Shown one piece after another: positions 7,779-52,713 of a stretch of 64,000 nt of DNA. Every line of letters starts with the position of its first letter. Positions within the stretch are counted from its first letter, which is position 1. Made by a program: the position numbers and the translations under genes. Where the stretch lies: positions 1 to 64,000 of IMG/VR virus record IMGVR_UViG_3300025093_000019. One strand, written 5' to 3'. The DNA comes from a virus. The notes under the pieces were generated by a model. That model was not told the DNA's origin. It did not search any database and saw nothing but the letters and a program-made list of their open reading frames with translations.

Positions 7779-10700
7779 TTATTCCTCACCTTCCGGGATT
7801 ACCTCCCCTACAGCTTTAACAGTTGAACTAAATGGAACTAACCTGTCTATTTCTTGCCAGCTACCAGTTGCAACTTCCCAATATCTTCCTATTGTTTCAA
7901 GTAGTGGAACACTAACTATAGCATCTGCTATTAAAGATGGCTGCCAAAGCATTAAATCTAAAGCTCCATATTTTAATGTTCTTAGGAATCTTGAGTCTGG
8001 AAGTAAGTTTTGTTTTCCTTTCTTATCGTCATCCCAATCTACTTGTGTCAATCCTGCGTAAATGAAAGACATGATAGCAGCTGATACCGTATCGGCCAGT
8101 AAACGTGATACATTATACTTATCTGTTTTAGACATACTCATCCAGGCTTCTTTTCCATTGTACTTGGCCTTTTTAAGTTCTGTAAACAAAGTTGACATAG
8201 ATCTAACCATGCCTTTTGTCATTCTTTGTTCCCAAACATACTCTCCATCTTTTTTGGTCCATTCACCTTCAACAGGAGAGTACTTCTCAACATCAAAGTA
8301 ATTGTATAATTTATCTGGTAAGTAAGAACGATATTGCATAAACAATCTTCCAACAGTACCTCTTGACAGTCTGGTTTGGGTTAGTGCATCCATTGAACCT
8401 ACTATGTATTTGTCAGCTATTGTTTTAAGCTGTCTTTGCATCATAAGTTCATATCCTCGTGGCATAGCCTCATCTACAGAATTCATAAACCCGTCTTCTA
8501 CAAGTCTATTTTTTATGAACTCTTTCATGGCTTGACCATCTTCACCTTCCCATCTTGGATCTAAGTTCTCATCGTATGCTAATTTACCATTTTTAACTGA
8601 ATAAGCAGCAATTGATCCATCTTTTTGCATAGCGGCAACAGCAGCTAATCCTCTAACATAATAGTCAGTAATCCAGTTCGTCCAGTGCATTGTATGACTA
8701 GTGAATAGATTTTTATCCATTACCTTTTTTCTAGGGTTATGCATAAGATCTCTTTCAGTCATGTCTGCAACTTGGTATTCCTCCATTATAGCTTCAAACA
8801 GTTCTCTACCAGTTTTAGAGGCAAGCATATTTAATGCTTTTTGTGCGTCTTTACGCCCATAAACACCAGAACCACTCATGTCATTAGCAATTGCTGTATT
8901 CATGAATTGGTTTGCATTCATTAAAGCAGATGTCATACCTAGAGGTACGTTTAATCCTAAACTAAATGCTGATGTTACTTGTAATGCTTGATTTACAAAC
9001 TTATCTACATTTACAGGGGCCTCCTTAAATGGAAGATTTAAATTGATATCTGTTGTTTCAGCTTGACCTTTAATAACAGAATTAACATAGCTTGTTAGAT
9101 ATTGAATTGATTTTTCCTGATCACCTTCTAGCTTCATTAATTCTGCATTATGAAGTATAGCTTGACCTCCATTGATAATCGGAAGCAATTCAGATTCAAC
9201 TATTCTTTTTCTATTGCTCGAAGACATCATTAAATTCATGATCATTTCGAGGTTTGTACTTAACGATTCATTAGCAAACTGATCAGTGAGAATGTGACCA
9301 CCAATAGCCTTATCAATACCCATTATACTCATTCTAGTATCAGATCCAAATACATCAGATTGTACTCCAGTTTGACTCATGAATATATCACTCATCTCTG
9401 TAAGTATTTTTTTCTTCTTAGAATCTTTTGATTGCTTTACATTTGCCTCATCATAAAGATCATCCATATTTGAAAGCTGATACATAAACTTCTCATATGC
9501 TTGTTTAGCATTTTTAGTATCCATCTTCATGAGCATTTCATTAACTGACTTGGATATCATAGGAACCATACCTTTTCTCCAAATCTTTTCAAGCTGCTCT
9601 CTAGCATCTTGTTCAGTGTACTTATTTTTGAAGTATCTATTTTGATGGATTAAGTTTTTGATCATCTCTTTTTCTAGAGTGTCAACTACAAACTTACCAA
9701 GTTCTACATCCCCAGGTGCTAATGTTCCATCAGCAATAAGCTTTTTAGTTTCTGGATCATTTTTGTCCCAATGTATTTCACCTGAATTTACTTCTACATC
9801 ATTTCCATTGATGTCTTTTATCATTCTAGTTTTAAATAAAGGCTTGAATTTATCACCAGCTAAATTTTGTAAGAAGTTCCATTTTCTTTGGTCCGGATGC
9901 TTCAAGAAATATCTTTCATCATAAGCTCTAAGTAATGGATTAAATTCATTTTTCTGCCATTTACTAATAGTATCAACATTCTTAGATAAAGTCTGATATG
10001 TTTTTTCTTGAACCCAATTTACTATCTCGTGTTCAATATTATGAGTAGTTGCGGTATAAGATGTTATAAGATTCAAGTCATTTGTACTGATTCTTTCAAA
10101 AGCAACAGGTGTTTTTGTAAGCTGCTTTAAAGTAGCACCTAATAAAGCATACTCTCTATCATCTTTTAAAGACTCTGGATTCTTTTGTTTTTCTAACCTA
10201 AGCATATGCCACTTGACCATTTCAAGAATATCCTCTCTACTTCCAACGCCTGATAGATACTCTTCTATCCTAGAGACAGAACCTTTCATAGTTCTAAACT
10301 CCCAAGAATTAGGATTGTCAGTTGAAAGATCTACTTGTCTTTGCTGATACTCTCTTCTTAAAGAGTACAACCAAGGCTGGTCATAGTCCTCCTCATAAAG
10401 AGTATCATCATTTATTACATCTCTGATTTCAGGAGATAAAGCTTCATACAAAGGCTCAATTTCTCTCATTGCCTTTATATTATCCATATAGTTGTCCATC
10501 AATACATAAGATGATTCCACATCGTTAGAGTGGACACCCATAACTTCAACTAGCTTTATTTTTAGTTCTGGATTTGCCTGCTTCATTGCCATGACTTGTA
10601 GAGTCAAAAGCATTCTTCTCATATCCCCTTCATTGTTACCAAAAGAAACACCTTTTTTCATTGCTTCTTTGTCGTCCATGAAGTTTCTAAAGAGGTTTCC

Positions 10701-13700
10701 TTTACCCAAGAACTTTTTACCAAGTCTTAAAGATGTGATATCAAAAATAGATATTGATCTTCCTGCGTCATCAATTGATTTATGGATAACGATAATAGGA
10801 TCATATCCTTCAAAGGCCTCAATATAAGGTATGTGTTGATTTCCACTGTCCTTAAATTCACTATACCTCATAAAGACATCTGTCTTATCATAGTCCATCT
10901 TCTTTTTAACCTCAGCTAAGACATCAGCATTATATCTAGATCTTCTATCTTTTGTAGGGAAAAAGTCTTTTGATATTTCAGGGTTTGTTTCTGCTCCAGA
11001 AGAAAGCCAATCCATCATAGTGTTCTTGTACTTTTGCTCAAACTCTGTGAACTTAGGTACTATCTCTTCTTTAATGAACTGCTTAGATGCCATTTCATCC
11101 ATGTCCTTAAAGTAGAACTTTTCACCGCTATACCAGTAAGTCTTTGTTTTAGGATCTATGTTTGAATAGATCGTATCAATTAATTCATCTACACGATACT
11201 CAGAGAAGTTTTTGATAACACCAGAAGGTTGTAAAGAGTTAATAATGTCTTTACTAACTGCCGCTTCCGGAACATCATATTCAGCTTCTGCTATCATATA
11301 AGATCCTCCTTTAGGATCTATTACAATTTTGTTGTCTTGATTTATATCCATTGCGGACATAAACTCATATTTACCTTCCTGAATAAAGTCATTAGTTATA
11401 CCTATAACTTGATCTAATGCATTGATTTGATTTGGAGTTCCATCACCAAACATAGATTTAATTCCATTCAAGAACTGATTCCAAGCACTACTCAACCATG
11501 ATTTAGCCTCTGTTTCTATTTCAGCTTCAGGAATACCATCGATACCCTTCATGAATTTTTGTAGGTTGTCATTTGTGTACGCCTCAGCAACAAATTCATC
11601 TAGGTTCTTAAATCCATAATTCTCAAATTTAGGATTTCCTTCTGCATCTTTTACATCAGCTTTTGATTTAACATGATCATAAAGCTTTTTGATATCACGT
11701 TGATACTTTAATGCTGATTCAACTCTAGCTCTTTCTGCTGTATTAAACTTACTAAGATCTATATCTTGATCTATGTTTAATGCGTAAACAGTAAAGTTAT
11801 GTAGCATTTCATGTAGGAAAACTCGTTCAGAATACTGACTAGGATCTGATTTATTAACCTTTCCATTATATATAGTGTCAAGATTAATTTTAATCCCCGT
11901 AGTACCCCAATTGAAATACCCTCCAACTGTGGCACCTTGATCTGCTTTTTCCTTAAAGTCAGCGTCTTCATCTGTACGAAGCCAAGAAACTAATCCTTTA
12001 TCAAGCCATCCACTTTCATTTGCTTTTAATAGCAAGTCTGCAATTAGCCTGTGGCCATCATGCTTAGTTCTTTCTTGTATGGCCCTAAGCAATCCTTCTT
12101 TTGTGTCATTTGATCTATACTCATCAATTGCTTTAGCACTAGGGACGTGTGGACGTAAAGTAACAGTATTTCCAACTACACCTCCAGTTCTATCTATATG
12201 CATAGTAGATCCATCTGGCATATAAACTATTCCAGATCTATAAGAAGGTCTATTTTTGAAAGTGATCTTTATTGATTTTCCTTGTCCAGCATCAATGTAA
12301 TTTTGAAGATCACCAAACTTCTTCATTACTTGAGGATATCCTTTTAGAGTAAAGTCACGTCCCCCTTCCCATTTACCAACCATTGTTAGGTTGCTTTCTA
12401 ATGGATTGTAACTATTAAATGTTTGTGCAACTTTTGACATATACATTTCACCAGTGTCACGATCTGTCATTGTAACATGATCTGCTAAACCTTGGCTACG
12501 TTCTAAATTCTTTTTAAAGAACTTAGGTGCAAGCTCCGGATTTTCAGACCATAGTTTTGCTCTAAATTCATAATTCTGAAGAAGAGCTTTATCATCACTA
12601 TTGTATAATGCATCTTGCATAAAGACATCCATCATTCGCTCATAGGATCTACTAACAGTTGTTCCTTCTGGAGTGTTAAGCTTGAAGGTTAGATCTGGAT
12701 TATCAAATATTGCTTCTTCAACGGAATCTAAGAATTCAGAGAATCTAACAAATATCTCATTATCCATAGCTTGGTAAAGAGTATTTGTCTTAAAGTTAAA
12801 ACCATCTTTCATTAACTGATAAGCATAGAACTTTTCTTTTAAGTTTCTTGGTAGCTTTGCAAAGTCAGCCCTCATATCAATAAGCTGACCTTTAGTTAAT
12901 TTACTAGCGTTCTTAATTTCAAGTACGCTATTTATATTGGTATCTCTAATTGTTAAGTTGTCTAAGAAAACATTGTTAGTTAATAACTTTTGTTCTCCTG
13001 AAGGATTGGGACTTCCATAAGCATCTTCTTTAAGCTTCATAACATAAGAAGGGAACTCTGTACCAAACCTATATCTTCCTGTTGTAGTAGAAAGATCGTA
13101 GCTTCCTACTGCTTTTGTACCAGACAAAGGAGGCATTGTAAGTCCAGGTGTGTTCTTGTTGTAATTAGTAGAAAAATACAGAGAAACATTAAACTTATCG
13201 AATTCTTTGAAGAATGAATAGTAAGACTGCTCACTCATCCAATCGTTTAGTTTGTTATCTCTTAGGTACTTTTTCATTAACCCCTGAACGAACTCACTAT
13301 TCTTAATGAAAGTTACATCCATCCACTGAGTCATTTTGTTGACCGCATCCAAATAACTAACAACATGAGGCAGTGCCTTAACAATTCCAGGTATATCGAT
13401 GTAGCTTCTAATTGCTTCTTCTTTTAATCGCAACTTTTCAAGGTCCTCTTCCGGTAAGAATCTTTTTTTAGATTCCCAAAATTTAGGATCTACATTAGTT
13501 CTACCTTTTGTGAAATCATCTATAGTTTGATTTAGGGCATATTCAATTTGACCTAATTGTTGATTTAACTTGTAATCAAATACAGGAATACCCTGGCTAT
13601 CAAACTTAACTACATTGTTTAATCTAATTACAGCTTCACCTAAATGAGACAGATCTTCTAACCTTCCTAGTTGATCTAGTTGTTCTCTAATGTACGGCTC

Positions 13701-16700
13701 CGGATCATTTTCTATGGATTTAAGATTCTCTAACTCATTCTCCATATTAGAAATCATATTCTGTTTGATTTCTTGATATTGTTCAGGAGTATAAGTTTCA
13801 AATCTTTCCGGAAGCCCCATACGATCTGTAACCAACACAACGTATGTACCATCTTCTTTTATTTCTGCTTCTTCAAATATTGGAGGAACAATGCTATCTG
13901 GTTGTGCCAGTGTAGCTTCTATTAGAGCCATTTTATCTTTTATGGCATCCATTTCATCTTGTGCATTTCCTTCTAACGACTCTCTCTGTGCTTCAATAGC
14001 ATCAGCTATAGTCATCTTTTTAAAGCTAGAAACTCTTCTAGAATACTTAATTCTATCAAAGACTTGTCTTACAGAGTCTTGATCAAGCAATGTACTTATT
14101 TGATCATAAGTGTAATTTAACATTGCTGCTGCACCTATGATGTTACTAGACTCAATAGTAGCACCTAAAGTACCAAGGATAAGTTCTTTGGCATTATCGG
14201 TTGCAGCATTCAAGTATCCTTCTAGTCTATCTGCAATTACCTTAGAATCAATGTCTTCTATTGCCAGTCTTTGGTTTAACTGAATGTTCTGAGCTTTTAA
14301 TGTCTCTAAGGCATGTGTAGTATATGAGAAGTTTTTAATGATGTTGGCAAATACACCAATCATTTTATCTCCTTCAAATATGTTGTCATAGTAGAATGCA
14401 TTGGTTCCGAAATCATGATGGTTGTTTTGGAACCTTTCCATTTGTGCTTTTTTGTCCGCAACTTGTCTTCTTAAAGGATTCAAGTTAATAGGACTCATAT
14501 AGATTTTAGCGTTTGAAGGATCTGTATAATACTCATACATTAAATCAAACTGAGAATTCATGTCTCCTTTCACTCCTTTATCTAGAATCCTACCAGTATC
14601 TCCAACAGACTTAAAGAACACGCTCAATGCATCGATATCGTAGTCACCACCATCTAAGATGTTCTTCAATGAACTTGTGTAAACAGTGTTACCATTATCA
14701 TTAATCCATCCAATTGCTTCACCAATAAAACCACCAGAAGCCTTTGATGTAGGTACACGGTTTAATACAAGCTTTGTAGTTTCTCTTAGATTCTGAACAT
14801 AAGCTATTGCTTTTTCAGCACTCTTGTATTTTTGCTGTATGAATGTGTCTCCATTCTTGCCTTCCTCTGATCTATATTGAGATTCAATAAATGTTTTAAG
14901 ATCCTCATCAGAAACCTTTTTCAAGTTTACAAGCTTACCATCTGCTCTTCTAAACATGAATGCATCATTTAATGAGAAGTCAGGGTTCTCTTCAAGGTAT
15001 TCTCTAAATCCAAACTGATCAATATAACTTAACGGAAGAATAATTTCAGCCGGCTTAACATATACATTTTGAGCAGCAACAGCATTATCAAACTCTTCAA
15101 GTGATTCTATTTTAACACCTGGTTGATCAGCATAGTAAAACTCCATAGGACGAAGCTGACGTTGAGTAAGAGGTGTATCACCAAACTCTCCTTTTTCAAC
15201 TTCTTTTTCCATATAGATATTACCATCCTCAGACTCATAAACATCAAAGAAGAATGCAGGAGCTTGACTCATTTTAACTCCATTTGATTTTGGTCTAATT
15301 GCATGCTTAGTTACCTGGTTAATTAACTGCTGTTTAATCTTACCCATGTTAGGTAAGTTCAAGCTAATATTACCATCTAGCCTACTCTTAAATAAAAGCT
15401 CAGTGTATTGAGTTAACTCTCCAACTTGCTCTGCCTGCTGAATTCCTATATCTTTCAACCAATTAGCAAACGCATCAGGATCTAATCCGCCTTCATCAAC
15501 AAATTTTTTCATCATGTTGCTGATTGCATCATCAGATATCTTAGCTTTCAAGCTGTTTATTTGACCTACCCTTTCTATGTTTTGAGATCCAACACCCATT
15601 TCAGCTAAAAGCTGAGTAGGCTGAGATTGCTTATCTGTCTTTTCAACATCTTGTGCTGCATTTAACTGAATACCAAAGAATCTGTTATCAAGAGTTGTTG
15701 ATACATTCCAAACATCATCATCGATATTTTGTATTGCTCTTGCACCTGTCTTCACTCCAGATCTAAATACTGCTTGTCCAAGTATTTCTGAAGCTCTTCC
15801 TGTTGAAATAACTTCTTCTGTAATTTCATCAAGAGTTCTAGTTCCATTTTCCCAAGATCTATACAGCTGCTGAAGAACTGGTCCAGGCATCATCTTTCTG
15901 AAGTAATCTCTTGCTTTTGCAGAGTTCCTTAAAATACCTTCTGTCAATTCAAGACTTGCATACTTTATATACAAGCTATCATTAGTCGCTAAATCTGTTT
16001 TCTTGTAAACAGGTTTACCCATACCTACACCCATGACACCAAGTTCATTACCCCCTAGAGAGTTCTTGAGCAACCTAGTGTATATTGGGTTTTCAAAAGA
16101 CAAACCATCAGTGTCTTCTGTTGTTGATTTGGCATTGAATATAGTTCTTAACTGATCGTATTCTTGAGTTGAAATATCTTCAAGTATCGCAATGTTCGTA
16201 TTCATTCCAACACCTCTTGGAGTACTCGTATCAACAACCCATAAAGGTGCCACGGCACCGGAACCTCTCTTAAAGTAATTGTCAACACCTTTATACTGCA
16301 TAGTATTTCCGTCAACAATCTGGCTTAAATAGAAATCATTAAAGTGATACATATAGAAGAACGACTCTAATGTAGGGTTTACATCCCACCATGTATAACC
16401 TTTAGGAGTTTTCTTAGTCATATCAGGATAGGCCCAATCAGTTTCAGTAATTCTATCAGTAGCTGTTCCTCCTCGTTCTCTCCATAGCTTAACCTCTTTT
16501 TTCAAGTGGTTAGCAGCATCCATATGAGTTCTAAAGAATATTGACTTAATCATTTCATCAACATTCTTGTCTTCTGTAATGCCTTTTTCTTTTAGATCTT
16601 TTTGTAACTGAGATTCAAAGAATACATCTTTTGCAGCATTAAAGTCCAAATCTACTCCTGCTTGTGCAGCAGTATTAATTTCTGCATTAATCTCTTCATC

Positions 16701-19700
16701 ATAAAAACCACCTTCAATAAGTTCTGCAAGATCTCTTTTGGCTTTTGGAACCTCAGCTGATCTTTTTAACCTACTAAAGTTGTTCCAGTTATAGACTCTA
16801 TCAAACTCCATCATAGCACTAGGACCAGCAAAAACATATTCGTTTCCGTCCTCTAGTTTTCTAATTGTATAGTCACTGTCTATTACTAAATCAGATCTCT
16901 TAAATGCATCTACAATATCCAATCGATTAGCACCTGTTTGCAAATCAGCTAAATACCATTTCATAGTATTAGGATCTGCTATAAACGACTCAACAATTTC
17001 ATTGTATTGCTGAGAAGCATTTTGTGCGTCCAGTGTAGTATCATTTATTACTTGATGTAATTTTGTTCCAGGTATATTTCCAATAACGTCAACTATTCTT
17101 GATGCTGACTTTTTTCTCTGGTTGTTAATGATCCTAAAAATGTTGATTACATTATCCTTAATCCATTGACGATCGACACTTATTGATCCATCTTTTAATG
17201 TAAATGGATTGTTAGGTAGTTTTATATCAAATACCGGGACACCAGCTTTGTTTGATGTGTTATGATAAGGAAGTCTAAACGTCGGAATTCTATTTCCTCT
17301 AGCTACATCTTCAACAAAAAGACCATTTATTACGAACTCAGCAAAATCAAGCTCAGTCATTTGTCTTCCGTGTCTAGATCCATTTCTTTCATTTGCTAGA
17401 CCACCCATTCTAACCATGTCAACAACTTCCCAATCTGATTCAGGATTTAGATATGGATTTAAAACTTCTAAGCCATAAGCTCCAGATTCATCTTGTGTTA
17501 GTTCAAAGTTTGGATTGTTTGATAGTTCATCAAAAGTGGTTCTTTCAATAATTGTTTTAACCATTTCTTTCAATCCGGATCCACTATTCTTTCCACTAAT
17601 TTGTGAGTTAGGAAATAGTCGATCGATAGTACTAGCATTAACATTTCGATAAACTTTTTTACCATCAACAGTGTAATACCACATGGCGTTATTTCCAAGC
17701 TCACTATCTGACTGAACTTTACCAAGGTTCTGAGTAAGTCTCCACATGTCAGTAGGCTTATAGAACTCTTCTCCAATTTCGGCACTATCTATTGTTGAGT
17801 CTTCATTTAGTTCATCTAAAGATTCAGTTTTGTATGCATTCTCTTCATAATACTTCTCAAGAAGACTTCTGATAGAGATGCTAGGATCAACAGCTTCTTT
17901 TGCTGTAAGCATCCACATTCCTGCTATCTCTGCAATCTTAGCTTGATCAACTTTTAAGTCTGGATTATCTTGGTCCGTGTCTTCAACAGTGTCCATATAT
18001 CTATTTATGGCATTGTCGTAAACCAGTTTACCAATATTGAAAAGGTTGAACAATGTTTTTATGTCTGAAGTTCTTACATTTTCACCAAGTTCAAATGAAA
18101 CTATTTGAGATTTATTTTTCCCTTTAACAAACTTGATTACTTGCTTATCTGGTGCACCTTTTATTTTAAGTGTAACACCACTTGAAGTTACAGATATATC
18201 ATTGTTCTTACCTACTAACCTCTCTCTTATCCTTTCAGAAACCATAACCTCCCCATCAACAATAGAGAAAAGCGTATTATCTAGTCTCGATTTAATAGAT
18301 TGAGATATGTGAGATCCAATAGCCATAGAAGATTTCTTAGCATTGTAGAACTTGCTAGAAGTAGTAAATGTCTCTCCTGTAACTTCATCAAAATCTGTGT
18401 ATCTTTTTGTATCAGAATACACATCGATAGTACTTCTTGTGGTAACAGATCCAAAGTGAGTAATAATTGCACTTATTAAATTGTCACTTGCTATACCTTT
18501 AGCTTTCACAACATCAGGATCATAACCTAGTATAGCTAAGTTTGATTTACCAGTAGCAACATTAACCATAGATCCCATTCTAAGTTCTTCATGACTTAAA
18601 AGTTTTTTACTTGGATCAGTATATTCACTAACAGCTGTAGGTCCTTGTGCTGCTTCTGTAACCCCAAAGTAATCTTCATAAAAAGATCTAACAGTGTTGT
18701 ACGTCGGTGTACCCACTCCTGCATTATTAAATATCTCTCTTAAATGATACTTCAGTTTTTGAAGATCATTAAATCCTTTTGTGTTTTCATTTTCAAATCT
18801 AGCTTTTTGAGATGCATCCGAAAGAACTTTAAAGATTGTAGGCTCATCAATAGTTCTACCATCTAAATCTACTTCATAAGTGTTTTCATCAGTATAATAT
18901 CTCAAAGGTGTATGCCTAATATGAAGCTTAACCAAATCAGAAAGAGTATCTGTAAAGTTTCTTTCATCAAGGTTGTCCATCATGTTGGTCTGACTTGTCT
19001 CATTTAAAGATTTCAATATTTCATCATCACCCTGAATTTGTTCTGCTAGATATACACCAAGCTTTTTAATCTTTTTATCTGACAAGTTTAGAGAAGGAAC
19101 AGCAGAGTTAATAAAAGATATTAATGCTTCAGTGTTCTTACCAAATGTATATACCGTGTAAAGTAATGGTTGCTGACCTTTTAGTTTACTTGCATTTGTT
19201 CCATTAACATCAGCATATGTTTTTACATCTTTACTACCATCAGAAAGCTCTAAATTAAAATAGTTGTTCTCAATTATCTGTGACTTAGCCTTATACCAGT
19301 TAACAACATTTGCTATTGTATCACTAATACTCATTGCAGGAGTATTGAGATCCCTATTAAAGTTTGAGAACTTAATTATCTGTTGAGCAACATGTTTCTT
19401 AGCTTCGTCTGCTAATCCATGATCACCATAGATGTTTTTAGCAAACTTCATAAAGCTATCTTTTCTTTCTTCCGGATCTTCTAATACATCTGGATTATCT
19501 TCGTTTGTATCAGGGTTATATTCACCATCGTTTTCACTTGCTTCTACTTCAGAGAATGATCTCTTATTTGGATCGATATTGAATTTACCAAGATCTCTCA
19601 AGAAGTCAGAATCAGTTTGATCAACTATACCACCTTTAGAATGAGTGATTGAAGAGACATCAATTTGATCAGTGCCCAAATAGAATCCATAATTGTTTAC

Positions 19701-22700
19701 ATCTTCTGCTCTTGTTAACAATTGTGATTCCTGCTCTGCTTTTACATTTAGCTTCTTGTCCTTACTAGTAAAATCAACAGTCTGAACAATCTTTCCTTTC
19801 ATTATCTTAGAAATCTTCTTGTCCATTATATCTAAGGCAGATTCTAAGGATTTCAATAAAGCGGCAGGAGTGGTTTTTTGATTAACACCACGTAATCCTA
19901 TTTCTGCTTCATTCTTGACATATAAGTGTTCCGCAAGCTCTGGCCATCTTTGATCGAAAGCTTTTGTATCCGGATCTATTAAATATCCTCTGTTTTGCTG
20001 GAACAATTTATATGCTTTAGTTTTTAAAACATCCCTACCAGTGTAAGCAGTTCCCTTTAGATCGTTTAATTCACCCTTAATAAGGTTGTAGTGATTAGAA
20101 TCATATTCAGGACTTTGAAGTATAATAGTACTCTTGTCAAATGCAGGACCTACCTTCCAAACATCTACAGCCCATGTGGCTATCTTTGAAGGTTTACCTT
20201 TAGCGTTTGTTATTGTCTTGTAATTAGTAGTCCAATAAGGAGTTCCTATCTGGAATCCTTTGTCTTTTAGTTTTCCTTTAAGTGCAGTCCAAGATTGCTT
20301 GTATTCCCCATACTGAACAGAACCTTGTCTTAAAGATTTCAGTTTTGCACGACCTACAAACCCTTGCTCCTGTCCAGCACCCTTTGCTCTAAATCCTGCA
20401 AGATCTAAATTAAACGATCTTAGATTCATTTGCGATTGTGCATTCTTATCGCCTTTAAATCCTTCTCTAATCTTTTTAAGTAGATCTTCTACAGCACCTT
20501 TGTCTTTATAGTTAATTGGCTCTCCTGTTTTTAGGCCGCCATCAACTCTTTTTCCAAAGTCTATTTCAGGTTGCGGAAGTGTAGCTATTACATTGTAATT
20601 GTTGTCCTGAATATACTTTAATGCTTGGTCAAAATTCAATTCATTTCCAACGCTCTTACCATAAGAATCAGCATAGAACCTTGCCATCTCACCAAGAGTT
20701 TTTGAGTCTGCCTTGACTAGCAATACATTATTCATTAACTCTGGCTCTCCATCATCATTTAAAAGCTCAATGTTTTCGTGGAATGTTATATTTACAGCAG
20801 GAGCAGCCGTCCCATCATTCAGCCTTGACTTAATTGATTTGATAAACTCATTTTTAAAGTTTACATGATCATTCTGAAGATCCCATCCTCCTCCAATTGT
20901 ACCTTGTTGGCTTTCTTTTTTCGGGTTCTTATCAAAGAATTCAGCTGCCTTTCTGATCTTGTTCAGGTTTCTGGTTCCGTCAGGATGATACTGATTTTTT
21001 GCTGCTAACAATACTTGCTTGGCAGCACCAATAAGACCAGCATGATAATTAGCCGGCTCTGCATCAAAAGGAATTTCTACTGATATCTCCCAATAAGCCG
21101 TTCTTCCTGCTCTGTCTCCAGGTACAACTTCTTGGTATGAAACTCCAGAGATCCTATCATCTTTAATAACTAAAGAGACATATTTAGAGTTTTCGTTAGA
21201 TTTGTTTGGCTCTGTTACAAACGTACCTACAATTGTTTTTTGCTCATCTACATATGAATCATAATTTAAGTTAAACGCTGTAATTCTTTTGTCTGATAGT
21301 TCTGTTCCATACCATTTTTCAAATCCTCTAGATATACCACGGAACGTCAATTCTATTGCGTCGTCAGGAAATACTCCTGTATTTTGAAAAGTCTTTTGTG
21401 GGCTTTGAGATGCATTACCATACGCAAAAGTGTATCCAGCAGCATGCTTCATTGCACCTTCTTTGTAGATTCTTTCAGGGGTTCCGTTTGCTTCGTTCTG
21501 GTTTAAAGTGTCAATACTAGTAACGTCCTGTGTAGAGAACATTTGCTTAAACTCAGTTTCTGTTAATGGACTTTCCTTATCATGATTGATTTCATAAAAA
21601 GTAGTTCCCTTTACATCTTTGTAAACACCGGTAACTTCAACAAGAGTTGTTGGATCATTATTGTTGACAAACATTTGACTTATGTCAGAATGTCCATCGT
21701 CATAGTTTCTAACATTCTTGTCTTTAAATTCAGGCAAGATATTGTTATCAACCATTGATTCTCCATATGCTTTATACTCTGCAAACTCTTGAGAGTCATA
21801 AGGCATAACAATAAAGTCAGTGTCTTCTACTTTAGCGATACTGGCATTATCTTTAATCATGGCTTTCACTACGCCTACATTTCGGATCTTATATTCAGGT
21901 CTTCCAGACTTTTCATCACCCTTTGTAAGTATTCTAGCGTAACCACCCAATTGTGCTAGAGCAGCATTTAGTCCATTATTGAATTTTTGAGATCCATCCG
22001 GCATCTTAATAAACCCTTTTTCAAAAGGATCTGCCTCATTGGTGTCTTCAAAGAATTCGTGACTTCCAGGAGTAAGTGTTTTAAGATCATAAATATCTAG
22101 AACTGGTATTCCATCTTCTATACCAACTACATCTACAATATCAATAGTTCCTGCAACATCATTAATGTAAACAGCAGCAATGGTTTCAGGAAGAGTTCTG
22201 GATCCACCTTTTGTAAGTCTCTGAGCAATTGGTATTGCAACATTTTGAATTACGTCATTAATAAATGGATGATTTTCAAATGTAGAATCAGCATCATCTC
22301 CAATAGGTTCTATTTTAGATAGCTTTGCTTTTTTACTCTTATTGTGCTTATCTACAGCTTCATTATAAGCCTGAATAAGATTTGTAATCTCTTCTTTATC
22401 AGACTTTAAAAACAATTTGTTTCTTCCTGGTGCTTGTCTTGTTAAATAAGCTTCTACTATTTTATGTGCTGCTTGACCTCTTAAAGAGTAGGATCTATCA
22501 TTAAAGTCTTTTGTTGGATTTGTTAGATCTTGGTTCTTTCTTTCTGTTACAGAATAAAGACCTTTTCCATCCATTACATATCTAAACTCAACTCCACCAA
22601 CTTTAAACTTAGCACCTAAATCAGGTGCCTTTTTAAGTTTGCCTTTTTTGTTAGCATTTTTGATTTGATTTCTTATTCCTTTGAATTGATCATCACTAAG

Positions 22701-25700
22701 TTCTTGAAGTTTAGTGTTTTGCTTTGGACCATCTCCTTCATTGTTTCCAGGTGTACCTGTTTCGCCTACTGGATTTGTTTGTGAACCAGTTATAGAAGAA
22801 AGGAAGTTATCCATTCTTTGAATCTGATCATCTGTTGCTGTTGAAGTCTCTACTATTATTGGAGTACCCTCTTCGCTATATCCGGTAGGAGAAAGAACTA
22901 ATGCATATCCAGCTTTAGAATCATCATATTTTTTAGCTCTAGTGGCAGCTGTAAGCATTGCTCTGTTATACAGGTGCTTTGCATCTGCTTTTTCAATAGC
23001 TACAAATATTCTAGGGAACTCTAAACCTTGAACATAGCTTTCACCTTTTTCCATTGTCTTTATAACACTATCCAGATTCAGGTTAGGGTTATTTATTTTT
23101 GACTGAATATATCCTTTTGCTGCATTTTTATCAGCTTCTGTATATACAATCAAGACACTATTTGTTTGCTTAAACTTATCTTGAGAGTTTAGATCATCTG
23201 CAAATCGATCGTACATTTGGCTTTTGCTTCCGGAGAAATATTCTAAACCATTATTTCTTTCAGAATCATAAGTTCCTTTTGGAAGAGTTACCTCTTCACC
23301 ACTAAATATGTTTATTCTAAATGCATTTTGGAAGTTGTTAATGTCAGCGGCACCAGATCTAAATACCTGTGTCGTTGGCATTGTTCTTTCCATTTTTCTT
23401 TCAACAGCTAAAAGCTCTCTTGCCTGCTGATTAATATCTGTCATTTGAGACTGATCACCCAAAAATATAACCTTTGGCTTTGCTACATTCTGGCCTTTTA
23501 ACGCAGCCACTAGTGTTTTAAATTCAGGTGTACTAATACTAGAGGCTTCATCAATAACAATAACGTCAGTATTCTTAAATGATTCTATGTTATTGTTGAT
23601 TCGATCTATTAGCTGATTAATATTGTATCCTTGGTCCGTTCCATTTTGTCTGATAGACATCATATTGCTTGCAAGAGCAGATTGTAACTCAGTACTAGGT
23701 GCTGAAAGATCGATATTCAAGTTTCTTCCCTTGTAACTAGAGTACATTGATAAAGCTGTTTTTATTATCAATGAAGTTTTACCAGTTCCTGCAAAACCAC
23801 GAACAAATAATGACCTACTTAAAAAGTCATTGATCATGTGTCTTGATGTCTTATCAGATTTAGACTGTCCAGTTATAGCCTCCTCTAAATCCATCAACAT
23901 AGCATTGTCAGGATTCACTAATAACCCATACACATGCTTAATAACTTCCATCTGCTCAAAAGAAGGAAGAACTCCAGATTCTTGTCTTATCTGATTTACA
24001 GCTTCTTGGAAGCTAGAATAAAAACTTTTAGAGTCTAGTCTTGCTATATTCTGAATGTAGTTCTGGAAGTAAACTCTTGCAAATTGTTGCTTCGCTCTTA
24101 AACTATCTGTCATTAAACCTTCCGGTGTTGACATAGAAAAAGACTGATAAGTATATGCATCATCATAATTTGCATCTGTAAACTCATCAGCATTTAAGTA
24201 AGTTAACTTTTTCTTTTTAGCACTCTTATACTTTTCAAAGTATAGAGTTAACTCTTTAGCGACCTTTTTAGAGTCTTGACCTTTTAAGAAGTTGTGTAGA
24301 TCCGACTCAATATCAACAATGATTTTATGAGCCTGGTCTAAAGCTTCTATCGGATAATTTCCATTATCTGCATAAAAAGATTCAGCTTCATTTAATAAAT
24401 CTCTAACTCTTGCTTGATTCGCTTCAATACCTTCGTAAACTTCTTTATCAAGATTAGGAAGAGCAGTAATCATATTTATGATGTCATTCTTAATCTTGTA
24501 GTCATTTAGTCTTAGTCTTGACTCTTTATTCTTTTTGTCATTTACATCTAATCCCTGCTTAATTTTTAAAGACTCCAAAAGAATTGCTTTGTCCATTAAC
24601 TCTTCTTGGATTCTTTTTGCCTGAGCATCTGTTATCTCGGCTTCAGCACTTGGCTTTAAGTGTCCAATGTCATGTTGTTTACCAACCTCTGACATGTATC
24701 TACTTGCATTGACAACATATGAGTTATTTCTAATAGAACGCTCTAAAAGCTCAATGTTCTGTAGATCTTCTTCATTAAGTGTTCTTGATGCTAAATCTTT
24801 CAAAGACTCAGTAATCGATATCTCATTACCTTGTCGATCGACATATGTATCATAATAAAGAGACTTGAAATCATCTTCATTGAATTCAACTGGAGATTGA
24901 GGAGTTATTCCTTGTGGTTTCCCATAATGACTTAGTTGAGATAAAGGAATTGCTTCTTCCCTACCTTCAACCATTGCAAACTGCTCTCCGTCAAAATCTT
25001 CAATGCTTTGAACTTTTCTTGGTACTCCAAATTGTTCTTTACCATCTATTTTCCACTGAACATTATCACCAACTTTAACCTCAGAAGAGGCTTCAAAGTT
25101 CTTAATAGTATTGTCTATTTCGTTCAAAAGCTTAAACGCACTGTTTCTTGCGGAACCAGCTGGAGCTTGCTCAAGTTTACCCATCCAGTAATCTTCAGCA
25201 GTCATACCCATTATTTCTTCCTGCTCTTTAAATGCAGCAACTTCTTCTTCAGTCGGTTCTAAAGCAGAGCTATCTGGAATGCTTTCGAGAATTGCCTCTT
25301 TTTCTGCTTGAAGTTCTTTAATTAACTTCTCTCTTCCTGCTTCACTTATTCCAAGATCTGTTGCTTTTCTTTGCAAATCTGCAATCTTACCTAAAGCAGT
25401 GTCGTAATCTCCAATGTCTTCAGCATATTGACCAGAAATATCTGGATCTACCATAAAGTCATCAGCAAGAACTTTTGATTCAAATTCTTTACGCTGCTTT
25501 GATCTTTCTTTTACTTGCTCAATAGTTTCTGCACGTTTTCTATCATATCTTTTATGAACATCATCCATTGCTGTCGCAGGAGGAACATGATTAGATCCAT
25601 CAGGAGCAACCATATATGTATCATTTTCAGCACTGAAATGCTTTAAATGAGTGTTAACCTGATTTTCTTTTACTCTTCGTCCAGAAGTAATCTCTTTTAA

Positions 25701-33577: not shown

Positions 33578-36500
33578 TTAGTTGTGCGACTGTCTAAAAT
33601 GAGTCAACACTGATTTGATAAAGATACGACTTTTTGTTTTCCATTCTATTCGAATTTTGATCCACCTACCACGGAATCTACTGTCAACGTCGTATATATT
33701 ATTTGTAGGATTTTGTAAGTCTTGAGTTCTTATTATTGGAAGCTTCCATAAATTTTCAGTATATGCAGGATCTCTCCAATAACTAGCTTCTGTTCCTTCT
33801 ATCCAAGGAAAGTGTTCTGATATCTGATGTTGTGTTTCGTAAACAACACGATAAATGTTATCTGAGCTTGTACTTAGTTCTAGATTGTCAAACACCTTTG
33901 TAATATCTGCTGCTTCATTAACTACGAATTCCACAAAACATAAATCCGGATCATCATTGTCAAAGAATGTAGTTGCATTTTCGTTTCCTGCAATTTCATA
34001 GATGTCTTTCAAATAACCAACTGATGTTATAATTGGATCCGGATTCATACTAGGAAATGACAATTTACCAAACGCAAAGAAGTCTTCATTGATTGTAAAC
34101 CTCATTGCTGAATCAGCTGTTCTTTCACCATGGAAAGCTCCTTGAAGTTCATTAAATACTATTGTTCTTCCAACATCTTTTATAGAGCAATCATCTAGTC
34201 TTTCAGGGCTTCCATATATCCAAGTGAAATATATGTCTTGATGTTTTCTATCGTACACACTAGTAATACCAGTTCTACAAACTGGGTTATCTAAAAAGAA
34301 TTCAACACGATCACTTTCGTCATTATTAAACTCACAAAGCTCGTGGAGTGTCGATCGATAACCTTGCATGTCGGACAATACCTCCATTTGCATATTACCT
34401 TTCATTCTCCAAATCTTTCTCTTATTAAAGTCAACACCATATATTGCAATCTCTGTTGAAACAATTGACCACTGATGCTGAGATCCAACATAGTCTGTTA
34501 AGTTCTGATGTTTAGAATCCAGTATATCCCCAGTACCAAGTAATAACTCACCTGTAGATGATCCTTGATTAAGTACAGCTTTTTCGTTTACAAAATGCCT
34601 GTTAACCCCTTCTTCTTGAATAGAAAACAATGCATTATTTAAAACCTGTAGAGATTTTATTTCACCCATTCTATAATCATACTCTTTCAGTGCAGATAAA
34701 TCGATAACACGATATGCATCTAAGAATGATCCTGGTCTATGCTTATTGCTAAACATAATACCAACAGGTTTGTTTTCCGGGAAGAAAGGTACCTCTAAAT
34801 CTATACCATTATAAAACTTGCTTGACAGAACTTTATTATAACCCGGATTAAGCAACTCAGACTCTCTTTCAATGTCTTTTACAGCTTGCTCGTAAACATC
34901 TGCATATGAACCTGGATAAAACTTATTGATGAAATCATCCAATCTCATCTCAGTATTTATTTTGTTTTCAGATATAAAAGAGTAGCAAACACCAAAAGAA
35001 TATAGTCTTTCTCCAATTAAGCCATCAAACAATCCAATGTCTATACCACCAGCAGCTATATTTCCTCCGTCGTCTTTTACTCCTGGTCCATACTTAGGAT
35101 TGTACATTTGCTTGTGCCATGTTCTTTGCAAAAAGCAATCTCCTTTGTAGAATATTTGATCATTAATCAGTCCATTATTAGCTTGAACGTCAGCTATACG
35201 ATAATACTTTGATATCTTAAAGTAAGTTGTTGCTTTTACATCATACAAGTCTGTTATATCAAAACTAGCAGGATCTACACTTGTGTTATACAAGTTAATC
35301 ATTCTATAGTCGTATTGAATGTCTGCATCTATGCCTATATAGCTCATATATGCCGATTCAAGATTAATCAACTCAATAAACTTGGTATCAGCTAAATTTT
35401 CTGCTAAAAAGTAATACATTGAATCGAAATCATTTCTTGATCCTTGATTAAAATAAGATGTATAGCTATTGTTGTTGGCTTGTTCCCATGGTGCTATATT
35501 ATGAACATCATGAAGATATTTTATCCCAGTACTAAAATTATATGTTTGATCTTGATAAAAATAATCCTCTTTACTGGGATCTATATCAGTAAATCTTTGA
35601 AAATCAATTGTTCCAAATGGATAAACTAGTGCTTTTGGTATCCCAAGTGTTTTTACAAAGAAATGATCAGATGAATGAAAGCCCCATTTGCCTTCTACCT
35701 GTTGAGTGTGTCTTTTAATGTGGTTGACAAAAGTGAACACCTGAGTAAACAGGTCACTAAAGTCATACTTTGTTTGATAAGGAAAAGAAGCTATTCTATT
35801 AGGTTGATTTAATATTCCTTTTTCTTCTTCAAACATTGGAACTACATCCTCATTTCTTTTTTCTATTTGTGGATATTCACCAATCAAAAAGTAAAGACCT
35901 CTTGATGAGGCACCATCAGCTGCATTATAGCATGGTAATGTAAATCCTTGATAAAGAAGTGTTTCTTGACGCTCTGCTCTTACAATATAGAATCCGGTTA
36001 CATTATCTAAAATGTATTGTGGTATAGATGCAAAAGCATTTGTAACGTCAAACTGAACACCCATTACATTAATTAAGTTTCCAGAAACTGTTGGAGACAC
36101 GTTGATGTTCGGAAATCTATAAACACCACTTGTGTTTGGCGTACCACCTAGATTCCAATCATCACGACCAGCAATTGGGAATGCCTGTGTCTCTCTTCCG
36201 TTCTTTAAAACATAGACAATGCCATAAGCATACGCTTCACCTCTAAAATATCCAGTTCTATTATAGACATTTATTTCGTTGTTATAGATTCCTACATCTC
36301 CATTTCCATTTCTATGCTGTAACTGCAAAGTAGCATTGTGACTTGGAACAATCAGTTGAGCAAAATTAAATAGATCTGTTATTGCTTCGTCACCATAGTC
36401 TGTAGTATCAAAAAGATTTCCTGCAAAGTATCTGTTCTCTAATTGAGTGTGCGTTAAAGCACCATCATACTGAGGTTTGGTTTTTATTATTTCATCTAAT

Positions 36501-37501
36501 CCAGTTTCAAAAGTTCCTTCGTATCCTGTAATCTCTATATCAAGAGTAGATAAATTTGGATCTATTGAATAAAGCTTATCTATGATTCCATATTCAACTG
36601 TGTCACTAAAGTAGTACATGTAGCCTATCTCTAGATAAGAATATGTTGTATCAATATTTGAATACCTAAGCTTTATACTTTTGTTGGTTTCTTTGCCGCC
36701 TTCATCACCATGATGTCTAATACCTTCAGACAAATAAGTTCCTTGAGTTATTTGTATTGCATTTGTCTCAGTGAAAAAAGAAGTCTTGTCAAAGTTTTCT
36801 GTTGAGTATCTAGCAAAAAATATCCAGTTTCCTGCACGAGTTTTTCCAGCCTGTCCAAGGCCTTGAAAAGAAACATCAGCATGTATATCAGATTCATGCA
36901 AAAGGTTTACTGCATTTGGAAATGAGTTGTCCCAATACCTTCTTTTGAATGATGTACAATTTCCATCTTGATCAAAACCAGTATTGTAAACTCTAACCGG
37001 CAATCCTTTCTGAGCCATATATAAGCTTACAGATCCATCGTAATCCTCTCTTGCAAATATCTCAACTTGATTTTCACAATCAAAACCTAGCAAATCTGTT
37101 CTAAAGTATTGAGATAGTGAGTTCTCATCTCTAGGTGTATTTGGTCCTGTAAAATTAAAGAGTGGGGAATATTGTTTTGCAGTTCCCCATCCCGAGAAAG
37201 AACAATCTTGATTTACCAATGCTAATGGTGCAGGATAGCATCCTATTTCACTTTGACCAGTACTAGGGTTTGTTGATGCTATATAGGCAACACCGTTATA
37301 CTCACAAACTCCAACAGGAACAAAACCATCTTCTAAACTAAATTTTGCTTCGGATCCACCGACATTAGTAAGAACGGCAGTTTTTCCATCAACCTCAATA
37401 TAACGCATGTTTTGGATTCTCCTAGAAGTATCCTTTGGTATGATCAATAAATCAAGATCTCTATTATCTCCTTTATGAAACTCGTTTATACTAGTTGGCA
37501 T
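33578..37501 (-). CDS. Tail stabilization-like protein (P22 gp10/crAss Tstab type)
   Basis: This 1,307-residue protein is mainly beta-strand with many aromatic residues. The start resembles stabilization proteins of crAss-like phages: a short leader, 'IPKDTSRRIQNMRYIEVDGK', then 'LTNVGGSE' and 'GVCEYNGVAYIASTN', where a list of genome-segment-like 'n.r' motifs is followed by a propeller-type fold. These proteins plug and brace the portal-tail channel. It follows ring/tail tube-like genes, the expected position. The sequence shows no metal-binding or catalytic motif. The assignment rests on N-terminal resemblance, size and order. Confidence 0.6.
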   Translation of the reverse strand: MPTSINEFHKGDNRDLDLLIIPKDTSRRIQNMRYIEVDGKTAVLTNVGGSEAKFSLEDGFVPVGVCEYNGVAYIASTNPSTGQSEIGCYPAPLALVNQDCSFSGWGTAKQYSPLFNFTGPNTPRDENSLSQYFRTDLLGFDCENQVEIFAREDYDGSVSLYMAQKGLPVRVYNTGFDQDGNCTSFKRRYWDNSFPNAVNLLHESDIHADVSFQGLGQAGKTRAGNWIFFARYSTENFDKTSFFTETNAIQITQGTYLSEGIRHHGDEGGKETNKSIKLRYSNIDTTYSYLEIGYMYYFSDTVEYGIIDKLYSIDPNLSTLDIEITGYEGTFETGLDEIIKTKPQYDGALTHTQLENRYFAGNLFDTTDYGDEAITDLFNFAQLIVPSHNATLQLQHRNGNGDVGIYNNEINVYNRTGYFRGEAYAYGIVYVLKNGRETQAFPIAGRDDWNLGGTPNTSGVYRFPNINVSPTVSGNLINVMGVQFDVTNAFASIPQYILDNVTGFYIVRAERQETLLYQGFTLPCYNAADGASSRGLYFLIGEYPQIEKRNEDVVPMFEEEKGILNQPNRIASFPYQTKYDFSDLFTQVFTFVNHIKRHTQQVEGKWGFHSSDHFFVKTLGIPKALVYPFGTIDFQRFTDIDPSKEDYFYQDQTYNFSTGIKYLHDVHNIAPWEQANNNSYTSYFNQGSRNDFDSMYYFLAENLADTKFIELINLESAYMSYIGIDADIQYDYRMINLYNTSVDPASFDITDLYDVKATTYFKISKYYRIADVQANNGLINDQIFYKGDCFLQRTWHKQMYNPKYGPGVKDDGGNIAAGGIDIGLFDGLIGERLYSFGVCYSFISENKINTEMRLDDFINKFYPGSYADVYEQAVKDIERESELLNPGYNKVLSSKFYNGIDLEVPFFPENKPVGIMFSNKHRPGSFLDAYRVIDLSALKEYDYRMGEIKSLQVLNNALFSIQEEGVNRHFVNEKAVLNQGSSTGELLLGTGDILDSKHQNLTDYVGSQHQWSIVSTEIAIYGVDFNKRKIWRMKGNMQMEVLSDMQGYRSTLHELCEFNNDESDRVEFFLDNPVCRTGITSVYDRKHQDIYFTWIYGSPERLDDCSIKDVGRTIVFNELQGAFHGERTADSAMRFTINEDFFAFGKLSFPSMNPDPIITSVGYLKDIYEIAGNENATTFFDNDDPDLCFVEFVVNEAADITKVFDNLELSTSSDNIYRVVYETQHQISEHFPWIEGTEASYWRDPAYTENLWKLPIIRTQDLQNPTNNIYDVDSRFRGRWIKIRIEWKTKSRIFIKSVLTHFRQSHN

Positions 37502-40500: not shown

Positions 40501-40551
40501 ATTTCCATGAATTTGAGAAGGTCCTACATATGTCTTTGTTCCCTTTTTCAT
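37513..40551 (-). CDS. Virion protein with N-terminal SET lysine-methyltransferase-like domain
   Basis: In this 1,012-residue protein, residues 8-85 match a compact SET domain: 'SQIHGNGLFAGEDL' (S-adenosylmethionine-binding G-x-G-L-F-A), 'NYNHSETPNARV' (N50-H51) and 'IGAGEEITVDYR' with Y84 as the conserved Tyr. SET proteins transfer methyl groups to lysine side chains. The linker has Gly-Gly motifs (FGGKVYMEDGG, FNFQDGG), and the remaining 900 residues are helical with a hydrophobic Gly/Ala-rich stretch near 700-740. Its place among large virion proteins suggests it is injected and could methylate host or phage proteins. It starts inside the previous stop (TAATG). The domain call is firm; activity and target are not shown. 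Confidence 0.8.
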   Translation of the reverse strand: MKKGTKTYVGPSQIHGNGLFAGEDLSVNDGFFGTTHEDNWPTTDLGQNYNHSETPNARVTKIGNKHFIMPIDKIGAGEEITVDYRKQPELEQPQEGWKFGGKVYMEDGGPTDPPKQNIKNVLLNTKANLPEERTPIDIGLNHQFGGGKESNMYKYMFANPNPEGIFGLMGAGHIPSGLEGNIGAIIPYQPNKYWKGEAFGGISKNFPKFSVGLTGTYNIADGKNQKGINKIKPGIRARFNFQDGGKIKPKITFTKDQLAEYESGYTGEVPFMDQIFNEYRDMNYFPVMNEDGSLSAYEVADISEGIMQHGYRGNKLAEITGADRARIDEMFQPVYDYHQAKYDERGMRKIQEYMDMGFTKSGAFNELIKSNFGTEEGLERIFGERAEGIASRKLAAERAARDLMQRQKEQETGEETYTAPAPPLLTRTDSKTAQQLRDEAYAGGPTIEGAKLLEEADRIEREQQRDQQPNIELGYDSMPVVAESTDVTNIVDSSFDNTFDFQIKTPQQVRAEQQAFVRSAMNEYYTNRVLWEDELGLSRDDFINPETGDYDDVALVQAMYAPEMQQKKIQNFQAQEQKIWDDMPWYKKAGQQVVAFMDDPILTGSQWMQGEGAMVGQEAWLSDPEKAQQVADRYGVTTQDLYDISGDSESWINDAFKVFNPLHYATQAGVSMSDAADDFDKGEYAEGLKDLGYAGANLIGGITGASELTGASKMLGYATAKELGVNQVLRGVAKPSQLFKRKDLVRLTGKESLQELKDRIASGQFNPSDAMWQQALKNNDELAKYASQYGDNLMYQATPLTEAAASQYSLGNLMTRANKGKSLPTGITREAVEDAATKSIPSRAEMMSNPEFRKHYLSLPLNQRINVNQMVSQPQNYWQNSLLQIDNKIVNPGLKDALGRNMFNTGEYLLPRKLDEFTAIGSRSIDDISAGSLITPTLIQAEKVAAQKTATRAGSQTIAESKGEEVPVEEQPAEQQKVQSASVNTDAVQSPGERGLINYMQMQKMFGGAGFK

Positions 40552-41303
40552 TATGCAACATTTCTAGACATTTTTACTTTAGGAACAATGTTATGTAGGA
40601 GCATGCTTATTTCGTTCATGTCGTCACGAGAAACATCTCTAAAGTTTCCTTTTGCTTTTGCAACATAGTGACCTAATCGATCGTTCAAGTACATATATCT
40701 TCCATCTGGAATCAATCCATTCATATAGTCCTCAAAATAAAGTTTAGTCATGCAATACCAAAAGCAAGCTTCTTGATGTCCATCTCTAATCATTGGAAGA
40801 CCTTCGTGATCTACAGCTACTCCTATGTAGTCTATATCAACAGTGTATTCTTGACTGAATGTTCCAGGATCATCAAGGTTAAATCGAAGATAAGCTCCAT
40901 CCCAATCATATTTTGGAACAGAACACTTATTTCTATAAACACTCAAGATCCTATAAATGTTACAAGGTAGATATGCTTTATTATGCTTCACAGTAACTTT
41001 TACATTTCTGTACTTCACAAAAGCATCATACATTGCTATCTCATCTGTCTCACATTCACCACACCATTCCGCAATATCATATATGTCAAACTCTTTACCT
41101 TTGACGTTTCTAGATATTCTTGCGGCTACATTTCTTACAGAGACATATTTACCTGAGTTAATATGCTCTACAGCTTCAGCAGAAAAACTCTTTTGAGAGC
41201 AATCTCCTGTACCGGGAACATTAATATCACAACTGCTTGCAGATTGTCCAGTGACATTTAAGTTTACCGTGTTGGCTGGATTATTGAAACTACTATGACT
41301 CAT
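40551..41303 (-). CDS. Probable tail tube/ring protein of the crAss-like head-tail connector
   Basis: This 250-residue protein starts at MSHSSF (ATG 41303), one base after the preceding stop; an earlier ATG at 41324 overlaps. After a Ser/Asn/Thr-rich leader comes a conserved-looking core: 'KVTVKHNKAYLPCNIYRIL', 'YTVDIDYIGVAVDHEGLPMI' and 'EACFWYCMTKLYFEDYM'. This resembles the tail tubular/ring proteins of crAss-like phages, related to P22 gp4 and T7 gp11. The position between the HU/IHF-like gene and the large virion genes fits. Medium confidence because no alignment was run. Confidence 0.55.
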   Translation of the reverse strand: MSHSSFNNPANTVNLNVTGQSASSCDINVPGTGDCSQKSFSAEAVEHINSGKYVSVRNVAARISRNVKGKEFDIYDIAEWCGECETDEIAMYDAFVKYRNVKVTVKHNKAYLPCNIYRILSVYRNKCSVPKYDWDGAYLRFNLDDPGTFSQEYTVDIDYIGVAVDHEGLPMIRDGHQEACFWYCMTKLYFEDYMNGLIPDGRYMYLNDRLGHYVAKAKGNFRDVSRDDMNEISMLLHNIVPKVKMSRNVA

Positions 41304-41304
41304 A

Positions 41305-41757: not shown

Positions 41758-41758
41758 A

Positions 41759-52665: not shown

Positions 52666-52713
52666 AATAACGCCAATAAGCAAAGAACGATCAATAGATC
52701 TTTCTTCTTGTTT

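Follow-up and report, generated by a model that had tools for sequence, protein, structure and literature searches.

A crAss-type RNA polymerase core predicted within a 6829-residue multidomain protein of an uncultured crAss-like phage

Introduction

The subject of this report is a 64,000-nucleotide stretch of viral DNA, hereafter the window, which comprises positions 1 to 64,000 of the IMG/VR record IMGVR_UViG_3300025093_000019, and in particular a single open reading frame (ORF) at 7779..28268 on the minus strand, which runs without an internal stop under translation table 11 and encodes a giant protein of 6829 residues that appears to hold an RNA polymerase. From the in silico comparisons described below, we consider it very probable that residues 3967-4742 of this protein (14043..16370) form the catalytic core of a single-chain, two-barrel DNA-dependent RNA polymerase of the crAss type, that is, of the type of phi14:2 gp66, which would be packaged in the virion and ejected for early transcription. 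All features of the giant protein lie on the minus strand, and their positions are those of the window.

The giant open reading frame and its active-site motifs

The active site is recognized from a series of short motifs distributed along the core. The catalytic loop, DGGDYDID, is encoded at 14631..14654, with G4540, D4542, D4544 and D4546 invariant among 55 aligned sequences, and its three aspartates are expected to be the metal-binding residues. It is preceded by NRVPT (residues 4503-4507, 14748..14762), in which R4504 and P4506 are likewise invariant, and, further towards the N-terminus, by RPKSNGVKMSQAP (residues 4325-4337, 15258..15296), which aligns with the 'K..GgsfIQmS' segment of crAss-type polymerases, by SGVKTG (residues 4170-4175, 15744..15761), which carries the nearly invariant K4173, by the invariant lysine K4102 (15963..15965), and by YKGVDNYFKR (residues 3992-4001, 16266..16295), which aligns with YKNMVDFFKR of gp66. 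The series is completed on the C-terminal side by NAATDNAK (residues 4687-4694, 14187..14210), the counterpart of NAFVDNAK of gp66, whose D4691 brings the number of invariant positions in the 55-row alignment to eight. The initial annotation of this DNA had proposed a polymerase active site at 14400-16400, and the residues that it quoted are all correctly placed: D4542 follows R4504 by 38 residues, positions 4542, 4544 and 4546 are aspartates, and position 4000 is a lysine. Its interval spans most of the conserved core but ends before the last conserved block, NAATDNAK.

RxP[T/N] followed by D[FYW]DxD 28-42 residues further on is found once in the giant protein and once when all six frames of the window are read; among 2000 composition shuffles of the giant protein, 3 contain the pair and 519 contain D[FYW]DxD by itself. 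The pair therefore carries information that the bare loop lacks, and the case is made by the collinear motifs taken together, not by DxDxD on its own.

A DNA scan for DGGDxDxD returned seven viral-contig stretches, only one of which (G001; 77,884 bases) matched the giant protein by BLAST; the other six were dropped as relatives. G001 encodes a terminase large subunit (TerL) 81% identical to that of the window, and its giant protein is a single ORF of 6414 residues that shows 41% identity over 6214 aligned residues, retains every catalytic residue and keeps DYDID intact. A scan with A2 again returned G001 only, and no relative came from viral-contig scans with the 1701-residue core piece, with the C-terminal 930 residues, or with a first DNA pattern that required, after DxDxD, a codon start GC, of the Gly/Ala/Asp/Glu/Val type. 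Two further candidates, L025 and L026, were set aside, their matches covering 44 residues at E 1e-3 and the stretches taken containing no such long ORF.

Homology of the polymerase core to phi14:2 gp66

For the comparison with known enzymes we built a profile of 90 crAss-type polymerases, aligned with MAFFT under its faster settings, from ten named polymerases and 80 loci kept at a score of at least 470 in a scan with the crAss alignment. The Azobacteroides phage ProJPt-Bp1 stands outside the ten named polymerases, its gene being cut by the interval and the part read being without D[FYW]DxD, and MT835470 (L005), which carries no annotation, was left unused. The 55-row alignment (A5) consists of 53 of the 80 loci together with the window and G001 sequences; three loci in which TAG had been translated as Gln were excluded from it, and the rest were omitted for redundancy, shortness or number.

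Compared by hhalign with this profile, the window and G001 sequences together match at probability 99.4 and E 6e-22 over 635 columns, with gp66 860-1663 corresponding to residues 3967-4742, and each sequence also matches singly (E 6e-16 for the window, 3.8e-23 for G001). The controls were clean: three other parts of the giant protein gave E 0.84, 0.44 and 0.029, the reversed sequence 0.36, and five column shuffles 0.048-0.94. The motifs YKN..D..KR, sGvKvG, 'GgsfIQmS', RIPN, DFDID and NA.vDnaKD are in register, and D4542, D4544 and D4546 are aligned with D1361, D1363 and D1365 of gp66, so that the motifs of the initial annotation all fall within one collinear alignment and the family that it had named, that of phi14:2 gp66, proved the right one. 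With the ten-sequence profile the sole clear block was 4632-4739 (E 7.7e-8), the reversed sequence and five shuffles giving 0.23-0.88. The DxDxD loop is conserved among homologues, not only in G001, the only close relative found, but also in the ten named crAss-like polymerases that could be read, all of which have RxP[T/N] and then, about 40 residues on and at the same place, DFDID, DFDVD or DYDID; all 80 scanned loci carry DFDID or DFDVD, although they were partly selected by that motif. In the trimmed core alignment the window sequence is 48% identical to G001 and about 21% identical at best to the other 90, and in a tree of polymerase cores it pairs with G001 alone. By these sequence comparisons the core is a deep branch, at about 20% identity, of the known crAss-type kind of polymerase.

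That a DxDxD motif had arisen by chance in a structural protein that is no polymerase would accord with the frequency of the bare loop in shuffled sequences and with the six DGGDxDxD stretches that matched nothing in the giant protein. We nevertheless regard this explanation as barely credible and reject it on the strength of the 635-column match with its controls and of the rarity of the motif pair in shuffles, to which are added the retention of the motif in G001 and the resemblance of the structural model to phi14:2 gp66 (PDB 6VR4).

Predicted fold

An AlphaFold2 model of residues 3930-4790, made from the 55-row alignment, reached a predicted local distance difference test (pLDDT) score of 80.5 and a predicted template-modelling (pTM) score of 0.80. 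In a Foldseek search of the PDB, 6VR4 was the only chain at E <= 1e-3 (E 9.9e-19, template-modelling score 0.59 by query length), the runner-up being QDE-1 at E 1.3e-2. A second structure aligner placed the model on 6VR4 825-1692 with Z 17.2 over 670 residues at a root-mean-square deviation of 4.7, followed by QDE-1 and RDR2 (Z up to 13.8) and by the P23-45 group of phage RNA polymerases (Z 8.7-10.1, from 8.7 for P23-45 gp96 to 10.1 for P74/P32), while cellular largest subunits matched over the second half of the model (Z 7.6-8.0). The two-barrel fold foreseen in the initial annotation is thus what the model resembles. Its description of the enzyme as multisubunit-type is apt for the active site but not for the enzyme, which would be single-chain and QDE-1-like: cellular multisubunit polymerases carry their barrels on two large subunits, whereas here the whole core lies in one uninterrupted ORF. 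A T7-type polymerase fold was not among the fold matches listed, and the model matches a different fold.

Since QDE-1 and RDR2 are the closest folds after gp66, we also weighed whether the polymerase might act on RNA or single-stranded templates, as they do, rather than on duplex phage DNA; this seems improbable to us in view of gp66 itself, the nearest enzyme by both sequence and fold, which is described as transcribing phage early genes (PMC7886860, PMC10136315).

Several points weigh against the assignment of the core to the gp66 family. Neither Pfam nor PHROG gave a match in the polymerase part; a tblastn search of 50,697 phage records with residues 3200-4900 yielded matches at E 0.3 and 0.9 only; no polymerase came up when PDB sequences were searched by phmmer or with a two-sequence profile; and HMMER with the ten-sequence profile scored the whole protein no better than E 1, its best domain reaching 4.6e-5. 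DYDID is followed by Ala in the giant protein and by Gln in G001, as against Lys in most named relatives. The 80 relatives were found through patterns that included DFD[VI]DK, with the motif as anchor, so that part of the invariance of DxDxD reflects selection. The two predicted double-psi barrels in one chain are assigned by structural alignment, not delineated by geometry, and the fold match cannot count as wholly separate evidence from the homology, because the alignment behind the model holds relatives of gp66; the fold result therefore speaks for membership in the gp66 fold family and is no proof of the fold from the window sequence by itself. For the same reason, the presence of its relatives in A5, the first place of 6VR4 in a search of PDB sequences with that profile (E 9.8e-277, the next rows being calmodulins at E 5e-4 and worse, which we took as noise) is to be expected.

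Genomic context and packaging

The record is 79,289 bases long and its terminal 127 bases are a copy of its first 127, which is consistent with a complete genome. Its late block, on the minus strand, encodes TerL, of the crAss-like kind (50794..52683, PHROG 6681, E 1.1e-95), the portal protein (48264..50789, PHROG 6547, E 2.4e-86), the major capsid protein (MCP; 45595..47061, PHROG 11589, E 1.2e-44), a tail tubular protein (40551..41324), matched weakly by hhalign to crAss001 gp43 (E 5.9e-5) and phi14:2 gp72, and a large tail protein in the position of phi14:2 gp71 (33578..37501; PHROG and gene-order comparison by hhalign). The first three of these match PHROG families of head and packaging proteins. 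The Crassvirales marker set of TerL, portal, MCP, tail stabilisation and tail tubular proteins is present by PHROG and hhalign, with the same caution as to the tubular protein, and the order TerL, portal, MCP, structural, tubular, tail and giant protein is that of phi14:2, crAss001 and Fpv3. By tblastn, TerL has matches in 152 phage records at identities of up to about 34%, almost all of those among the matches listed being crAss-like or Flavobacterium phages. On this sequence evidence the source is an uncultured crAss-like phage.

The giant-protein gene belongs to this late block and adjoins the tail genes, as in phi14:2, whose gp65, gp66 and gp67 are annotated on the basis of tandem mass spectrometry (MS/MS), and the crAss001 proteins gp47, gp49 and gp50 were detected in virions by mass spectrometry (PMC10172136). 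A crAss-type polymerase could instead be made and used within the cell and never packaged, and two-barrel phage polymerases of that sort exist, as exemplified by P23-45 gp64 (PMC10770324); we think this very improbable for a gene that stands among late structural genes beside those of the tail and whose product carries domains of the gp65 and gp49 types, which belong to packaged proteins. The term 'virion polymerase' used in the initial annotation is accordingly kept in a provisional sense, as drawn from homology and gene position only.

Half of the 16 window proteins compared (those of 637, 621, 499, 1012, 175, 130, 256 and 368 residues) had no counterpart at E 0.01 in the set used for the gene-order comparison. 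The 175-residue ORF at 41305-41832 occupies the position of integration host factor (IHF) and has no match in PHROG, hhalign or Pfam, and the 1012-residue protein (37513-40551, minus strand), whose gene is flanked by those of the tail tubular and large tail proteins, contains in its N-terminal part a stretch resembling a SET domain (PF00856, E 2.2e-4, just under the cut-off). Also on the minus strand are genes for a 235-residue protein in which collagen-like GPxGPQ repeats can be read off the sequence (2830-3537), and for an 803-residue protein with a YCF48/sortilin-like region (4976-7387; E 9.8e-8 and 2.5e-7), possibly a tail or host-binding protein. Elsewhere in the record we noted a MoxR-type ATPase (PF20030, E 1.5e-21) followed by a 405-residue protein that appears by eye to be like a von Willebrand factor type A domain and has no match in a Pfam search (L032:13192-15457, record 73192-75457); a DnaA C-terminal DNA-binding domain (PF08299, E 9.6e-10) in a 209-residue protein encoded close to a DnaG-type primase (L032:16942-17571); and a CxxxCxxC protein, radical-SAM-like by eye, that spans the 127-base terminal repeat of the record (1-701 and L032:19003-19287).

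Other domains of the giant chain

Towards the N-terminus, residues about 1484-1780 (22929..23819) form a superfamily 1 (SF1) helicase domain (Pfam AAA_30, E 1.1e-12), with GFAGTGKT from residue 1491 and DEAS from 1573; in G001 the same domain is found at E 4.1e-12 with its motifs kept. It is followed, at residues about 1935-2110 (21939..22466), by a possible PD-(D/E)XK nuclease, which we read tentatively as RecB/Cas4-like from its motifs, conserved in G001: the candidate residues are H1935, D2043, D2061-x-K2063 and Q2106-x3-Y2110, in the spacing RG..H, GTID, DxK and Q...Y, and the stretch has no Pfam and no PDB match. A model of the helicase and nuclease region was poor (pLDDT 43, pTM 0.32), and a tblastn search of phages with residues 1001-2829 found nothing at E 0.01. 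The N-terminal 3300 residues show no homology to phi14:2 gp67 or crAss001 gp47, the only signals being weak ones to cr4_1 proteins (best E 1.1e-4).

On the C-terminal side of the polymerase core lies a zincin-like metallopeptidase domain (residues 5442-5624, 11397..11945), with HEMLH at 5486-5490, which hhalign aligns with phi14:2 gp65 207-352 (E 6.7e-10); its HExxH, 944 residues after DxDxD, is kept in G001. Weak tblastn matches of the giant protein to Klebsiella and Acinetobacter N4-like virion polymerases fall within this domain, which is thus common to gp65-type proteins of crAss-like phages and to N4-like virion polymerases, two unrelated kinds of polymerase being involved. The chain ends with a domain (residues 6417-6748, 8025..9020) like the C-terminal part of cr4_1, cr55_1 and crAss001 gp49-type proteins (hhalign E 1.7e-6 to 3e-5), the match of this region to crAss001 gp49 reaching E 2e-7 by blastp. 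Two moderately hydrophobic segments near the C-terminus (residues 6723-6790, 7899-8102; Kyte-Doolittle 1.49 and 1.54 over 19 residues) might touch a membrane. With a helicase, a polymerase and an HExxH domain in one late-gene chain, the giant protein has the composition by which polyvalent proteins are recognized (PMC5512222).

The zincin-like domain 944 residues after the catalytic loop raises the possibility that the 6829-residue chain is a precursor, processed, perhaps by this metallopeptidase itself, to separate proteins resembling gp67, gp66 and gp65, in which case the fusion would be only genetic; for some polyvalent proteins, autoproteolysis by domains of this type has been suggested (PMC5512222). 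The N4 virion RNA polymerase (vRNAP), which also has such a domain, is nevertheless packaged unprocessed (PMC5512222), and no cut site is known in the giant chain; we regard processing as a genuine possibility, though not the one we favour, and it is compatible with the polymerase assignment.

Comparison with known systems

What is new here, as read from sequence, is the architecture, which unites an SF1 helicase, a possible nuclease, a polymerase, a zincin-like peptidase and a gp49-type C-terminal domain in one chain. Among the 80 crAss-type records, many of which are fragments, none has a polymerase ORF of at least 6000 residues, the longest being 5549 (lengths taken from the best-scoring row per record). 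Size alone is a modest extension, because crAss polymerase genes of up to about 6000 residues are already described in a review (PMC10136315). Nor is the union of polymerase and HExxH domain in one ORF unique: a peptidase profile matched 22 ORFs at the 80 loci, of which nine are the polymerase ORF itself, eight of these having HExxH 823-1230 residues downstream of DxDxD, and Flavobacterium phage Fpv3 gp32 is a further instance. For some crAss-like phages, large transcription proteins that include PDDEXK domains have also been published (PMC7886860). The one-chain form is not described in the literature searched, which included the excerpted text of PMC7886860, PMC10136315, PMC12386605 and PMC11054128, the phi14:2 structure paper being outside this scope.

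The closest system, phi14:2 gp66, shares the two-barrel core, the DxDxD loop with RxP about 40 residues before it, the collinear motifs and the place in the late block; it differs in that core identity between the window and crAss-type relatives is about 20% at best, that gp65 has its own gene in phi14:2 but its counterpart is fused into the giant chain, and that Pfam finds no helicase in gp66 or gp67, unlike the giant protein. In crAss001, gp50 has a DFDVD core and the C-terminus of gp49 resembles residues 6632-6749 of the giant protein, but gp50, gp49 and gp47 are three separate genes. Fpv3 gp32 (4287 residues) has DYDID and combines polymerase and HExxH in one protein, at a distance of 949 residues against 944 here, whereas the next large protein is a separate gene (gp32/gp33) and Pfam finds no helicase in gp32. 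The Suoliviridae likewise have very large polymerase chains (cr130_1, 5801 residues; cr50_1, 4774; cr4_1, 4491; cr55_1, 4551), but their second large protein is separate; in cr50_1 the polymerase protein also includes an SF1 helicase, which lies near its end (4249-4448) rather than before the polymerase as here (1484-1780). We noted in addition a NADAR domain (PF08719, E 1.7e-13) near the N-terminus of the polymerase protein of crAss-like phage cr126_1 (L022:6322-13530).

Outside the crAss-like phages, the N4-like virion RNA polymerases, to which the weak tblastn matches led, resemble the giant protein in carrying a metallopeptidase domain within a giant virion polymerase, N4 vRNAP being a polyvalent protein with a zincin-like domain, but their polymerase module is of the T7 type, as against two-barrel here (PMC5512222). 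P23-45 gp96 is a two-barrel virion polymerase within a giant protein, but it is fused to a tape measure protein (PMC10770324) and is structurally farther from the model (Z 8.7, against 17.2 for gp66).

Proposed mechanism and significance

From the homologies and the gene order we infer the following scheme, in which packaging, by homology, as well as ejection, early-gene transcription and the roles of the fused domains, is to be read conditionally. The giant protein would be synthesised late, together with the remaining structural proteins encoded in the minus-strand block, and its chain would be packed within the capsid, leave it with the DNA in a partly unfolded state and refold in the host, a route that we propose because homologous phi14:2 and crAss001 proteins are found in virions. 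Within the refolded enzyme, D4542, D4544 and D4546, in one double-psi barrel, would hold the catalytic magnesium ions, and conserved lysines of the other barrel region, for which K4102 and K4173 are candidates, would face these aspartates. The plus-strand early genes, which extend from about 61.5 kb through the joined ends of the record to 2.7 kb, would then be transcribed by the giant-chain polymerase independently of host RNA polymerase; a repeat search of the early region revealed no convincing promoter-like family. Where phi14:2 encodes gp67, gp66 and gp65 separately, the phage studied here encodes one chain comprising the polymerase, the gp65-type peptidase, the gp49-type C-terminal domain and the N-terminal helicase module. 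In its strongest form, which we advance speculatively and consider rather unlikely, the whole ejected transcription apparatus would have collapsed into a single chain of almost 7000 residues, with helicase, RecB-like nuclease, virion RNA polymerase, peptidase and a C-terminal domain with hydrophobic segments, one molecule of which would enter the cell, open or process the incoming DNA, and start early transcription.

The polymerase core described here extends the crAss type to a lineage whose divergence defeats plain sequence search, and the giant protein represents a natural all-in-one version of the set of several proteins that phi14:2 and crAss001 would eject. If it is packaged whole, the chain would, to our knowledge, rank among the largest single polypeptides to pass through a phage tail, and it could show how the separate proteins of other crAss-like phages are ordered and touch one another.

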